Source of the DNA: an uncultured Eubacteriales bacterium
Lineage (GTDB): Bacteria > Bacillota_A > Clostridia > Christensenellales > Aristaeellaceae
Direction: 5' to 3'
Assembly (NCBI GenBank): GCA_900313545.1
Contig: OMRS01000205.1
Location: forward strand, 1-5,053
DNA length: 5,053 nucleotides
The position numbers and the translations under genes were made by a program. The notes under the pieces are model-generated. The model saw only the letters and a list, made by a program, of their open reading frames with translations. It had not been told where the DNA came from and made no database searches. Position 1 is the first letter of the stretch. Every line of letters starts with the position of its first letter. Positions 1-5,053 of the stretch are shown in pieces.

Positions 1-28
1 CCGCCGCCGCACCGCTCCCGCGCGACGC

Positions 29-66
29 AAAATGCCCCCTTCCCTCAAAAGAGAAGGGGGCATTTG
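29..66 (-). terminator. Intrinsic terminator closing the DUF4230 operon
   Basis: AAATGCCCCCTTC (30-42) and GAAGGGGGCATTT (53-65) form a perfect 13-bp stem with a 10-base loop. On the minus strand the stem ends in GGGGGCATTTT before GCG, so there is a short T run of four. On the plus strand only three T residues follow, so minus-strand termination is favoured, although the A/T base makes it potentially bidirectional. It lies about 95 bases past the micropeptide stop. Confidence 0.78.
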
Positions 67-158
67 GGCAGGGCTGCCGCATCCGGCACCCGTTTTTTCT
101 CCGGAACCGTCCGGATGAGCGCCTCCCGCCCGGGTGCTCCTGTCCGTTTGGGGATTTG

Positions 159-227
159 TCATTTCTTTTTCCCGAAAACCGCCACCAAAGTGACAAAGAC
201 GATCAGAATGACGACGACCAGCAGCAT
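159..227 (-). CDS. 22-residue single-pass membrane micropeptide
   Basis: A short frame directly downstream of the second DUF4230 gene. The ATG at 227 has a perfect AAAGGAG (243-237) at 9 bases. The peptide is Met plus about 17 almost purely hydrophobic residues (LLVVVILIVFVTLVAVF), then Gly-Lys-Lys-Lys and a TGA stop at 161-159. A hydrophobic span with a basic C-terminus predicts a single membrane helix with the Lys end on the cytoplasmic side. An in-frame ATG at 269 would add 14 residues but lacks a ribosome binding site; it begins 2 bases after the preceding stop, so reinitiation cannot be ruled out. The peptide falls inside the operon, before the terminator at 66-29, so it would be co-transcribed. 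It may be a small subunit or regulator of the DUF4230 proteins. No homologue is claimed. Confidence 0.68.
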   Translation of the reverse strand: MLLVVVILIVFVTLVAVFGKKK

Positions 228-236
228 GGCTTCATT

Positions 237-243
237 CTCCTTT
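237..243 (-). promoter_or_regulatory. Ribosome binding site that decides the micropeptide start
   Basis: AAAGGAG on the minus strand, 9 bases before the ATG at 227. It matches the site used by the acidic-protein gene (2765-2759) base for base. No larger reading frame uses it, which is the main argument that the 22-codon frame is translated. Confidence 0.65.
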
Positions 244-271
244 CCTTGGTTTGTGCAGATGCACGGCATGT

Positions 272-940
272 TCAGCGGATCGGGCTGTCATTCCAGTGGA
301 CCTTCAGCTCCATCCCCGTTTCCTTTCCCGTCTCCACGATATACCGCTCCAGCAGCACCTTGGCATTTTCCTTTGACCTCATGAGCAGGTTCCGGTTGTT
401 TTCCGCCTCCTGGCGCATGGCGCTCTGCGCCGAGGCAAACGCCTCCGCCTTCTCCCTTCCCGTGATCTGGGTGAACCACCCCTTCTCCGAGAGCGGCTCC
501 GTCAGGGAGTTTTCATCCGCATTCACGCCAAGCACCCGGGCATCCGGCACATACACCTCCACGACGCCGCTGCGGTCCGGGCCGAGGATCTGGATCTTGT
601 CCGCGTCCACCCCGGTTTCAACGATGCCGTTGTATTCGATCCAGAACTGCTTGTAGCCGACTTTGGTCACATTGCCGAAGGGCCAGAAGAAGATGTCGTT
701 CATGAACTTCTCGCTCCCGTCCGGCTTCTTTTCAAACATCGCCACATTGTGATAAAAGCTTTTGAGGGTCGCCAGCTCGCAGATCGTGTTGACGGAAGAT
801 ACCTCGGAGAGGTTCATGGTCACGTTTTTCCCGTCGCCCTGCGGAAACAGCAGGATCCCCGCGGCCGCCGCCACGCAGAGGATGCCGCCGGCGATGCAGG
901 GAAGGATATGCTTTTTCTCCATCTGTGCTCCCCCTTTCAT
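272..940 (-). CDS. Membrane-anchored DUF4230-like protein, second of a pair
   Basis: A paralogue of the preceding gene. Residues 12-32 are a hydrophobic signal anchor after a KK pair. The predicted outside domain (about 40-216) shares the same order of elements: ELATLKSFYHNV, an aromatic strand with YNGIVETGVDADKIQI, then VVEVYVPDARVLGV, a long charged helix (162-200) and a final strand MELKVHW. It differs in having an aromatic insert DIFFWPFGN (82-90) and no low-complexity tail. Its ATG overlaps the previous stop (ATGA), with AGGAG 8 bases upstream (953-949), consistent with translational coupling. A second in-frame ATG at 922 has GGGGGAG 5 bases upstream and would give a form six residues shorter (MEKKHIL…) with a more typical N-terminus, so the start is uncertain by six codons. 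The two proteins probably act together in the envelope, perhaps as a complex; this is inference. Confidence 0.87.
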   Translation of the reverse strand: MKGGAQMEKKHILPCIAGGILCVAAAAGILLFPQGDGKNVTMNLSEVSSVNTICELATLKSFYHNVAMFEKKPDGSEKFMNDIFFWPFGNVTKVGYKQFWIEYNGIVETGVDADKIQILGPDRSGVVEVYVPDARVLGVNADENSLTEPLSEKGWFTQITGREKAEAFASAQSAMRQEAENNRNLLMRSKENAKVLLERYIVETGKETGMELKVHWNDSPIR

Positions 941-1575
941 GCGCCCTGCTCCTGAGTCTGCGCCGGTGCCTGTGTCTGTGCCGGTGCCTGTGTCTGCGCC
1001 GGTGCCTGTGCCGGCTCCAGGCCGCTCCAGACGATCCTGTAGCCCCTGGCCTTGAGTACCGGGAACATGAGCCCCTCGATGGTGGACCTCAGGTTCTCCC
1101 TGGCCGTCTCCATCAGTTCCTTTGAGTTCCTGGCCTCCCGCTCCGCGTCCTCCTTGCTCGCCTTCATCATCCTGTCGATGTCGACGTTGGCGTCCGAGGG
1201 CAGCACGCCCATGAATTCCTCATCCGCGATGGTCACCTTGAGGTCAATTTCGGGAAGGGTGGCCGTGACGGTGCGGCTCTCCTCATCCACGTCCAGCAGG
1301 ACCTTCCTGAGGTCGATGCCCGCCTTGACGATGGCGCTGTAGCAGACCCGGCAGTCGATGCTGCTCCTGCTTTCGTTCTTATAGATGTCGGCGATTCCCC
1401 TGTACCTGAATTCCGCGGTGGACAGCTCCGCGACATCCAGGGATTCCGTCAGGATGGCCGATATATTGAGATTCGTGCTGCCCTTCCGGCCCGCCAGTCC
1501 AAAGCGGACCACGCAGGCCGCCGCAAGGGCGATGATCCCTGTCAGCAGGATCAGCCTGGAAATGGTTTTTCCCAT
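937..1575 (-). CDS. Membrane-anchored DUF4230-like protein with (PAQTQA)n C-terminal tail
   Basis: Residues 7-27 are a single hydrophobic segment preceded by Lys/Arg, so this is probably a signal anchor with the rest outside the membrane. AAAC at 18-21 resembles a lipobox but is followed by more hydrophobic residues, so a lipoprotein is less likely. Residues 38-186 fit a DUF4230-type domain: an ELSTAEFRY element, a strand pair with AGIDLRKV, a TATLPEIDLKV strand, then a long charged helix (134-172) and a final strand (RGYRIVW). Two cysteines lie close together at 75 and 78. Residues 188-212 are a low-complexity Pro/Ala/Gln tail from a DNA tandem repeat. The start follows GGAGG (1584-1580) at a rather short 4-base spacing. 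The stop overlaps the next start as ATGA. No biochemical role of DUF4230 is known to me. The family call comes from pattern recall, not a search. Confidence 0.85.
   Translation of the reverse strand: MGKTISRLILLTGIIALAAACVVRFGLAGRKGSTNLNISAILTESLDVAELSTAEFRYRGIADIYKNESRSSIDCRVCYSAIVKAGIDLRKVLLDVDEESRTVTATLPEIDLKVTIADEEFMGVLPSDANVDIDRMMKASKEDAEREARNSKELMETARENLRSTIEGLMFPVLKARGYRIVWSGLEPAQAPAQTQAPAQTQAPAQTQEQGA
951..1014. repeat. 18-bp tandem repeat encoding PAQTQA units
   Basis: GCCGGTGCCTGTGTCTGT (962-979) is repeated at 980-997 with one change (last base C) and partially at 998-1009. A degenerate piece at 951-961 and a GCCGG at 1010-1014 flank it. The unit length is a multiple of three, so changes in copy number keep the frame and only lengthen or shorten the Pro/Ala/Gln tail of the first DUF4230 protein. 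Confidence 0.92.
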
Positions 1576-1597
1576 ACTTCCTCCATCTGCATGTTTT

Positions 1598-1617
1598 CCG
1601 GAGCCGGGACGCTCCGG
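1598..1617 (-). other. Hairpin in the leader just upstream of the DUF4230 ribosome binding site
   Basis: CCGGAGC (1598-1604) and GCTCCGG (1611-1617) form a perfect 7-bp stem with a 6-base loop. On the minus-strand transcript it ends 13 bases before the GGAGG site of the first DUF4230 gene, so it could affect translation initiation. On the plus strand the same hairpin is followed by TTTT, but there is no plus-strand gene for it to terminate. Confidence 0.4.
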
Positions 1618-1822
1618 TTTTCATCTTGTTCCCGGGGCCGCGCCTCCGCGGCGCCCCGGCGCCGTATCCCATCCGTTCCGGCCGCCGTCTTTCCCCTCCC
1701 TCCGCCTGGGGGAAGCCCGCCGCCGGCAAAGGGATGTTCATCTTCAGATCCCTGCCGGGGCATCGGGGAGGCGGCAGATCCGCAGCGTCCCGCTCCTGAA
1801 GCGGGCATTTTCCGACGGCCTC

Positions 1823-1850
1823 AGTATACACGATTTCTTCAGCTTCTGAA
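1823..1850 (-). promoter_or_regulatory. Candidate promoter of the DUF4230 operon, with inverted repeat upstream of the -10
   Basis: TATACT (1828-1823, minus strand) is a good -10 hexamer in an A/T-rich island within otherwise GC-rich DNA. No strong -35 lies at ideal distance: TTTCAG is 17 bases and TTGTTT 20 bases upstream. An inverted repeat TTCAG-AAG-CTGAA (1850-1838) lies upstream of the -10, where a repressor could act. Transcription would begin near 1816, about 240 bases before the start codon at 1575. Confidence 0.4.
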
Positions 1851-2963: not shown

Positions 2964-5053
2964 TCACTTCAGGATGACCCCGTTTTCGGCCAGCCTTTCC
3001 TCAAGCCGCCGGGACTCCTTCAGGCGGCCGGTCCCGGTGTAGATCCGGTTGAGCGCTTCGCCAAAGTGCTGAAGCCGCGACAGGGCCGTCTCCCGGTCGA
3101 CGGTCCCGCCTGACAGGTAGCCTTCCATGAGATCGATCGCCCTGCCGTAGTAGATGACCGCCTCCTCGCTGCCGCACCGGTTCCACAGCACCCAGGCGTA
3201 ATTGTTGTTCACGATCGCGAGATTGTCGGCGACGCGCGGGTTCCCCTCCATCCTGTGGTCCCGGGCATAGCAGAGCGCCTTCCGGTACTCCCGCAGGGAT
3301 CTCTCCAGGTCCTCATCCTCCAGGTAGAAAGCCATCCCGCAATGCGCCTCAAACTGCGAAACGCAGTTCACGCTGTCGGCATGGTGATTTTCGATCAGGT
3401 CCAGCGCTTCCTCCACGTACCGCCTGGCACTGCGGTCATCCCCGCTGTTTCTTGCCCTGGCGTAGCGCATCATGATCGTTTCCGCCACCGTGTTGAGCGG
3501 GACGGTGTTCCCTGCCGCCCCGCACTCCCTGACCGCCCTCTCCCGCAGGTCGTAGATTCTGTCCCTCCAGGTTTCCGCTTCGGGGTCGTTCATGGCGTCA
3601 AGGACCCTCGACAGCCTGAAGCACCCGCACAGGTATTCCGGCAGATGTCCGTTTTCCGGCGCCCCCATCTGCGTCAGGATGTCCATGGCCTGACGGCAGC
3701 AGGACAGGGCGTCCTCAGTTTTTCCTTCAAACAGGAACATGCTCCCCCGTTCGCCCAGGAACTCCGCCTTCTCCTGCCGGTGTTTCTCCGGATCCACCCT
3801 GAAGAAGGCGTCCGTTTTCAGGAGCTCATCGTGCAGCAGCACCCTGGCCATGTCAAAGATCATCCTGACCTGCGCCCGTTCGGGCGCGCTCAGGTCGTCC
3901 CTGTCCGAGTCGATGAAATACTCCGGCTCCCGCTTCTGCCCAAAATAGGCTTCATACAGCTCCCCCATTTCAATGCGCATATAGCAGCTCTCATGCGACG
4001 CGGTATACCGGCAGGTCCCGTCCGAATACTCCACCATCTGGTAGTACTCCCTGCGCTCCGGCTGGCGGTCATTGAACATTTCGATATACGCCCTGGGAAG
4101 CTCCCCGCCATGCAGGGCCATCCCCACGCGGGTGCCGTATTCCCGGGTATCGTCCACCTTCCTCATCACTTCCGCGACTTCCCTGTCCGTCAGATTGTCC
4201 AGCTCAAGGAAAAACGGGAAAAATGCGGATCCGGCGGCTTCCTCCAGGGACCCATAGCTTTCAAGGGGAGCTTCCCCGGGCCCATCCTCCTCCGTTTCCA
4301 AAGGCTCCTGCACCGGTTCCTCCCCGTCCTGCGCGCACGCGTTTTCCAGTTCCAGAAACTGCTGCTGCGTCCAGACGTCAAATTCGGAAAACGCCCCGTC
4401 ATACAGCGCCGTGACGACAAAGACATTTTCCTCCTTATCCTGCACCCTGATCCAGCCGACATAGGTATAGTCAAAGGGCGCAGGTCCGTCGTTGGGGGTG
4501 CCTTCCACAAATGAACCGAGCTCCTCAAATTCCCTGGGCTGCACCCTTTTCCCCGGGTCCCCGTCCGGAAAGGACGTGTCCCGGATCGGGGCGCTGGGCA
4601 TGTCCGGACTGGTTTTGAGCAGCGGAAGGCCCGCCTTTTCCAGCATGTCATTGAGCGTCTGGATGCTGGCCCCGTCGACGATGGCCAGGATGATGATATG
4701 GCTGCGCAGATCCCCTTTGCTCAGGCCCGGCATCCCGTAGCTGGACAGGGCATGCTGCGTCTGGGTCAGGTTCATCCCGATGGCAAAGCACATGGCCAGC
4801 AGATAATCGCGTTCATCGGTATGCTTGTCCCCCCGCAGCAGCTTGTACACGTAGTCCTGCGAGAGGCCGGAGCGGACGGCCACCTGTTTTCGGGTGATCC
4901 CGTGCTCCCGGATCATCTGGTCCATGAACGGAACAAACTCCCCCGGAAAGCTGCTCCGGTTCATCGAGCGGATCATGGCCTGCACTTCCTCGCTGCGGCC
5001 GTGCTTGAGCATGTCTATAAGCTCCTGAGGGTCCTGCGTCAGGTTGTGTTCCG
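2964..5053 (-). CDS. XRE-type helix-turn-helix regulator with TPR-like C-terminal region, 5' end beyond window
   Basis: Probable cytoplasmic DNA-binding regulator. Numbering from the ATG at 5012, residues 37-62 form a helix-turn-helix (ITRKQVAVRSGLSQDYVYKLLRGD), within an XRE-like helical domain of about 25-95. Residues 100-135 are helical. Residues 180-225 are beta-rich and aromatic, 228-260 form an acidic Pro/Glu linker, and 415-680 contain several degenerate TPR-like helix pairs (about 415-445, 555-585, 595-632, 645-680). An XRE head on a TPR body is known from regulators that sense peptides or partner proteins, but no close family was recognised and no ligand can be named. The stop is TGA at 2966-2964. 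Start: the ATG at 5012 has AGGAG nine bases upstream, giving 682 residues. However, the frame stays open to the window edge and the 13 extra codons (…LTQDPQELID) read like protein, so I prefer an upstream start. Its promoter is not visible. The HTH call is secure; the function is not. Confidence 0.9.
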   Translation of the reverse strand, partial: EHNLTQDPQELIDMLKHGRSEEVQAMIRSMNRSSFPGEFVPFMDQMIREHGITRKQVAVRSGLSQDYVYKLLRGDKHTDERDYLLAMCFAIGMNLTQTQHALSSYGMPGLSKGDLRSHIIILAIVDGASIQTLNDMLEKAGLPLLKTSPDMPSAPIRDTSFPDGDPGKRVQPREFEELGSFVEGTPNDGPAPFDYTYVGWIRVQDKEENVFVVTALYDGAFSEFDVWTQQQFLELENACAQDGEEPVQEPLETEEDGPGEAPLESYGSLEEAAGSAFFPFFLELDNLTDREVAEVMRKVDDTREYGTRVGMALHGGELPRAYIEMFNDRQPERREYYQMVEYSDGTCRYTASHESCYMRIEMGELYEAYFGQKREPEYFIDSDRDDLSAPERAQVRMIFDMARVLLHDELLKTDAFFRVDPEKHRQEKAEFLGERGSMFLFEGKTEDALSCCRQAMDILTQMGAPENGHLPEYLCGCFRLSRVLDAMNDPEAETWRDRIYDLRERAVRECGAAGNTVPLNTVAETIMMRYARARNSGDDRSARRYVEEALDLIENHHADSVNCVSQFEAHCGMAFYLEDEDLERSLREYRKALCYARDHRMEGNPRVADNLAIVNNNYAWVLWNRCGSEEAVIYYGRAIDLMEGYLSGGTVDRETALSRLQHFGEALNRIYTGTGRLKESRRLEERLAENGVILK

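Follow-up and report, generated by a model that had tools for sequence, protein, structure and literature searches.

The question raised by this locus is whether a very short hydrophobic frame lying directly 3' of two DUF4230 genes is a real gene and, if so, whether its product belongs with theirs. The stretch of DNA analysed (hereafter the window) is 5,053 nt long, and a sequence-only reading of it had proposed an unannotated membrane micropeptide at the end of a DUF4230 operon. With a probability of roughly 0.6, the micro-ORF is a genuine gene, and its product is a membrane microprotein with one helix, made with, and acting on, the DUF4230-A/DUF4230-B pair.

The DUF4230 operon and the micro-ORF of the window

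The two DUF4230 genes are located on the minus strand, and the 3' end of DUF4230-A (212 aa, 1575..937) overlaps the start of DUF4230-B (222 aa, 940..272). Both proteins scored above the Pfam PF14014 cut-off of 27 bits, with 55.8 bits (E 7.2e-15) for DUF4230-A and 81.9 bits (E 6.5e-23) for DUF4230-B. They are 20% identical and, judging by sequence, related to each other. Each carries an N-terminal hydrophobic anchor; this stretch was found in 115 of the 120 DUF4230-B proteins listed (from 128 homologues) and, according to the alignment, also in DUF4230-A. A hydrophobic C-terminal tail fused to DUF4230-B was found in none of the 120 listed proteins. In the window, an 18-bp tandem repeat (951-1010, 3.3 copies) encodes a repeated PAQTQA tail at the C-terminus of DUF4230-A, which was absent from the other seven aligned DUF4230-A proteins.

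The site TTCAGA-16-TATACT (1850..1823, minus strand) upstream of DUF4230-A is a candidate operon promoter (one promoter-like site found versus 0.1 expected). At the other end, a 16-bp hairpin (65..30, minus strand; a 56-nt fold of -31.4 kcal/mol with a z of -5.1) is probably the operon terminator; its T-run is short, it matches an intrinsic terminator only moderately, and it is not listed by a terminator scan requiring five T. The micro-ORF MLLVVVILIVFVTLVAVFGKKK (227..159, minus strand) lies between DUF4230-B, with a gap of 44 nt from its stop, and this hairpin. It comprises 22 codons, from the ATG at 227-225 to the TGA at 161-159, and is preceded by the Shine-Dalgarno (SD) sequence AAAGGAG (243..237, minus strand), nine bases 5' of the ATG. 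The SD, the ATG, the Lys-Lys-Lys end and the stop were all found where the sequence-only reading had placed them. Its count of 17 hydrophobic residues was also confirmed (Ala, Val, Ile, Leu, Met, or Phe, followed by Gly and Lys-Lys-Lys); to call them uninterrupted was slightly generous, since one Thr (residue 13) stands among them. From the hydropathy, a single transmembrane helix is predicted, followed by the C-terminal Lys3.

An in-frame ATG at position 269, without an SD, would give a 36-aa product (269..159, minus strand), and this longer version is present in the protein database as record P0121. In-frame upstream starts also occur at the related loci L001 (32 aa) and L003 (26 aa, TTG). 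The 22-aa form is the likelier product, and the start at 269 is probably not real, because it has no SD and because an SD-linked start is present in all nine loci that carry such a frame. The 22-aa form is too short for usual gene finders. As a longer call of the frame exists, its description as unannotated is not fully correct for the window. When the extended frame of 41 residues was used as a protein query, the sole match was the window's own record. The search of the 36-aa frame against Pfam returned SafA only, with an E value of 0.026 and under its cut-off, and the window peptide matched no NCBIfam or PHROGs model.

DUF4230 itself is an orphan domain family. HflK and HflC are paired SPFH proteins to which DUF4230 might have shown a resemblance; no such relationship is claimed here, as Pfam scans of 41 members list no Band 7 match. 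Solved structures related to DUF4230 by sequence were not found at E 1, and at E 10 the sole hit was a ribosomal protein matched by chance. Only three openly licensed papers were found to mention DUF4230; they include a Streptococcus mutans study and an Oenococcus oeni proteome map, and neither of these two deals with a small partner in its title or at the beginning of its abstract. According to excerpts of the S. mutans study, a transposon mutant of SMU_1803c (DUF4230) was a moderate biofilm hit, and the targeted deletion showed no significant biofilm defect (PMC13041782).

Occurrence of the frame across DUF4230 loci

To sample related loci, a 41-row alignment built from 41 of the 120 listed DUF4230-B homologues was used. 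It found four loci in genome contigs, of which three came from roe deer gut samples and one from an uncultured Clostridiales contig, presumably of rumen origin given its RUG name. Searches in relatives of those genomes (1972 genomes, overlaps included; E thresholds between 1e-10 and 1e-45; scoring confined to the first 7 or 11 candidates where genomes were larger) added 23 loci. In total, 28 loci including the window were taken for comparison, after five had been dropped before counting (L005-L008, which duplicate L001-L004, and L030, which is the A gene belonging to L029). Each locus is represented by its best match to the DUF4230-B profile, and the most distant ones need not be true B genes. 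The distribution of DUF4230-B is sporadic: within one order, 4 of the 396 genomes sampled gave a match at E 1e-10, and within one family 10 of 200 did. Collections of phages, plasmids, and viral contigs contained no relative of DUF4230-B and thus lend no support to mobility on such elements.

A short hydrophobic frame with an SD before it was detected 3' of the DUF4230-B stop in nine of the 28 loci (the window, L001-L004, L009, L018, L031, and L032). The encoded peptides contain 22 residues in the window, L001, L004, and L009, 19 residues in L002 (with a GTG start) and L003, and 25 residues in L018, L031, and L032, with hydrophobic runs of 14-21 residues. The gap from the DUF4230-B stop is 44 nt in the window, 37 nt in L001, 49 nt in L002, 39 nt in L003 and L004, 133 nt in L009, 19 nt in L018, and 12 nt in L031 and L032. 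With 219 to 391 bits, these nine loci also score best against the DUF4230-B profile, and at the main setting of the rule given below the signature was found in none of the 19 lower-scoring loci, from L019 (201 bits) downward, among which L027 offers no more than 93 nt downstream. In the 28-row tree (midpoint root, for drawing only), a branch with a support of 100/98 separates the carriers, two of which (L031 and L032) are near relatives, from all other loci, and none of 500 label shuffles was as clustered. The frame thus belongs to one subclade rather than to DUF4230 pairs generally, and this is the only PF14014 subclade with the microprotein among those sampled. The conservation beside DUF4230 pairs that the sequence-only reading had envisaged extends to all nine loci of this clade, the window included, and to none of the other 19. 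Within the clade, the loss of the frame or of its SD beside a retained pair, which that reading had named as evidence against itself, was not seen in the eight nearest loci, all of which keep both.

In all nine carrier loci, DUF4230-A precedes DUF4230-B. The genes beyond the cassette mostly differ, except for one following gene common to L018, L031, and L032 and one more shared by L031 and L032; this constant order in changing surroundings indicates that A, B, and the microgene stay together. The hairpin begins 94 nt beyond the micro-ORF stop in the window, and a 15-bp terminator hairpin begins 4 nt beyond it in L001. In L018, L031, and L032, the micro frame lies tightly between B and another gene, the ATG of which overlaps the micro stop. 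Both arrangements place the frame inside the operon transcript. The suggested position at the end of the operon and before its terminator consequently suits the window and L001, but not the three loci where a further gene comes next. No clear terminator was found 3' of the frame in L002, L003, L004, and L009, and a same-strand gene follows it within about 110 nt in L003 and L009.

The gene overlapping the micro stop (L018:916-1392 and L031:1028-1411, both on the minus strand, and the same place in L032) encodes a small membrane-type protein with a FNDL(L/M)CPL stretch. Its L018 and L031 copies share 30% identity (E 2e-18) and match no Pfam family above threshold; two database records were found for the L018 copy, one of them 99% identical. 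At the distant DUF4230 locus L017, an SD-preceded frame of 58 aa with one strongly hydrophobic stretch starts 21 nt after the stop and is perhaps an unrelated small partner.

The rarity of the signature was estimated with a rule that required five bases of an SD at a distance of 4-13 nt, a length of 15-36 codons, a best 12-residue mean hydropathy of at least 3.3, and a start within 150 nt; its thresholds were set after the first loci had been seen. In 788 kb from 12 related genomes, the signature occurred at three of 616 ends of gene-like ORFs (any open frame of at least 100 codons, without curation). All three were DUF4230 loci of the clade, leaving none among the other 613 ends. A scan of every position on both strands of the same DNA gave five positives, four of which were the DUF4230 loci in it. 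Dinucleotide shuffles of each locus's own downstream segment produced the signature in 0 of 2000 cases for eight loci and in 1 of 2000 for L002. Of the main setting and five looser ones, five returned the same nine loci, and the one without an SD added L017; the background count rose from three to four under three looser settings. The added background case, which came out at the hydropathy setting of 3.0, is an SD-preceded hydrophobic frame of 35 aa in genome G004 (L033, G004:C5:1-20000, reverse-strand position 10250); it overlaps a gene end that lies some 2 kb upstream of where DUF4230-B ends in that genome. Observed directly are thus the frame with its SD, the location immediately after DUF4230-B, the occurrence in all nine loci of the clade, and the scarcity elsewhere.

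Divergence, selection, and charge polarity

Among five of the nine loci that were aligned, the other peptides were 11-23% identical to that of the window, with no invariant column, which is too little to establish homology of the peptides themselves. Length, hydrophobicity, and a basic cluster persist across the peptides, and the sequence has diverged almost completely. The comparison of synonymous and non-synonymous change advised in the sequence-only reading covers one pair, L031 and L032, since the others are too diverged. The micro frames of this pair differ at 20 of 78 bases without an indel and give a dN/dS of 0.38, with a value of 0.06 for the DUF4230-B genes of the same two loci. The micro-frame ratio is not significantly below 1 (Fisher test on rounded counts, p 0.14). 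In simulations of random change (20,000 runs for each starting sequence), the frame, the stop, and a fully hydrophobic/small core were kept in 2.9% of runs from L031 and in 4.7% from L032; 7.9% of runs from L031 kept the frame, the stop, and a hydropathy of at least 3.3. The codon data of this pair suggest selection for a hydrophobic helix, though taken alone they are weak.

Two charge polarities were found. Basic residues are located at or near the C-terminus in six peptides (the window, L001-L004, and L009; the L003 peptide has IID after its KR). The other three peptides (L018, L031, and L032) start with them. The C-basic subclade has 93/84 support, which falls short of the star assigned by the tree program. 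Under the positive-inside rule, by which the direction of membrane insertion is predicted, the two groups would have opposite topologies. The near-absence of fixed residues, together with both polarities, suggests that general properties of the helix may matter more than particular side chains.

Possible role of the microprotein and competing explanations

That the peptide is a small partner of the two anchored DUF4230 proteins, as the sequence-only reading had supposed, is the reading best supported by these data, the frame being kept in eight of the eight nearest loci; its translation, membrane insertion, binding to A and B, and any functional effect we infer. The microprotein probably serves a DUF4230-A/B membrane complex as a small subunit or as a regulator, by analogy with known operon microproteins. 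In such a model, A and B would form a membrane complex in which one N-terminal helix anchors each protein and the soluble domains face outward, and the microprotein would pack against their anchors within the bilayer and thereby assemble, stabilise, or tune the complex, as CydX does for cytochrome bd. A more specific model, which we put forward tentatively and with some doubt, is a three-part complex of DUF4230-A, DUF4230-B, and the micropeptide, in which a nearly sequence-free third helix is selected for length, hydrophobicity, and a basic cluster and adopts opposite orientations in two lineages with the same partners.

The closest parallel is offered by CydX, CydY, and CydZ. According to excerpts of the paper describing them, they are encoded after cydB, differ greatly in sequence, and are tied to CydA clades, and ribosome sites are noted for CydY and CydZ (PMC4325964). 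CydX tolerates every single alanine change tested, as stated in an excerpt of a further study (PMC6005532). Like these proteins as excerpted, the peptide studied here is a variable single hydrophobic helix encoded just 3' of a two-gene membrane-protein operon and tied to large-subunit clades; an SD-preceded single-helix frame after a membrane-protein pair, coupled to one partner clade, is the arrangement found at the nine loci. However, CydX has 37 residues in E. coli, compared with 19-25 for the nine peptides. Membership in the CydX/CydY/CydZ group was rejected, because their conserved Trp at the helix start has no counterpart (no Trp occurs in any of the nine peptides) and the partners are PF14014 proteins instead of the cydAB products. 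At best, the peptide may work like CydX-type operon microproteins without being one of them. KdpF is another small membrane partner of a larger complex. AcrZ, according to excerpts of PMC7267776, is a small helical protein whose target is a larger membrane complex; both combine a small helix with a larger membrane complex, as proposed here, and differ in their partners. With respect to DUF4230, both operon partners belong to PF14014, whereas the microprotein has a gene of its own and does not match PF14014. As no family model matched above its cut-off and searches of openly licensed papers on small proteins brought up nothing on this peptide, it is regarded as a new family of a known kind; large microbiome small-gene surveys may contain a relative.

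A rather unlikely alternative is a membrane-damaging peptide of the type I toxin kind (IbsC, 19 aa, or Fst) that is silenced by an antisense RNA and merely parked after the DUF4230 pair. The peptide resembles IbsC in size and composition, and excerpts of PMC8309996 describe such toxins as similarly small and hydrophobic, many with a basic C-terminus predicted to be cytosolic and with poor sequence conservation. They are, however, antisense-regulated modules, and a clear SD with a fixed place after DUF4230-B in all nine loci would be unexpected for free-standing ones. The antisense promoter scan covered the window and L001. No promoter-like site was found on either strand of window positions 1-1800, which is weak evidence given 0.2 expected, and a site at 2358-2331 (minus strand) of L001 does point at the frame from downstream, among five sites there versus 3.3 expected, a total at chance level. 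The window also gave no Rfam match. We regard as unlikely an exported or membrane-active signal or antimicrobial that the DUF4230 pair senses or protects against. A sporadic cassette in mostly changing surroundings that pairs a rapidly diverging peptide with conserved membrane proteins would agree with such a role, but the gene lists of the loci, in which few genes were domain-scanned, include no common exporter or processing gene, the hydrophobic runs resemble membrane helices instead of secreted peptides, and the DUF4230 proteins of the window match no defence model.

It is also quite improbable that the translation of the short frame matters and its product does not, through coupling to a downstream gene or protection of the mRNA 3' end. 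The overlap of the micro stop with the next gene's start in L018, L031, and L032 and the nearby same-strand genes of L003 and L009 speak for this reading; against it, a hairpin comes next in the window and in L001, where the next gene lies on the other strand, and the hydrophobicity retained in nine loci would be left unexplained. A chance frame in an intergenic stretch, an idea that could draw on the shortness of the frame, the non-significant dN/dS, and the missing family match above cut-off, can hardly be credited: the signature is present in nine of nine loci of the clade, at none of the 613 other ends of gene-like ORFs, and in 0 of 2000 own-segment shuffles. A microprotein partner of the DUF4230 pair remains preferred.

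A clade-bound microprotein suggests that the DUF4230 pair is a membrane complex and provides a small testable handle on it. If the three-part complex is real, a previously unseen microprotein family would be added, together with a handle on an orphan domain family. The members with inverted polarity would serve as a test of the minimum conservation that a regulatory helix requires. The case also indicates that microproteins beyond the reach of similarity search can be found by their place, ribosome site, and helix properties when their sequences are unalignable.

Five proteins were scanned against defence models without a match, and no tRNA was found. Besides the operon, the minus strand encodes a 178-aa protein (2215-2751) with no family match in four libraries and a very acidic C-terminus, and a 682-aa protein (2964-5012) with weak matches to an N-terminal helix-turn-helix and to TPR, all below the Pfam cut-offs.
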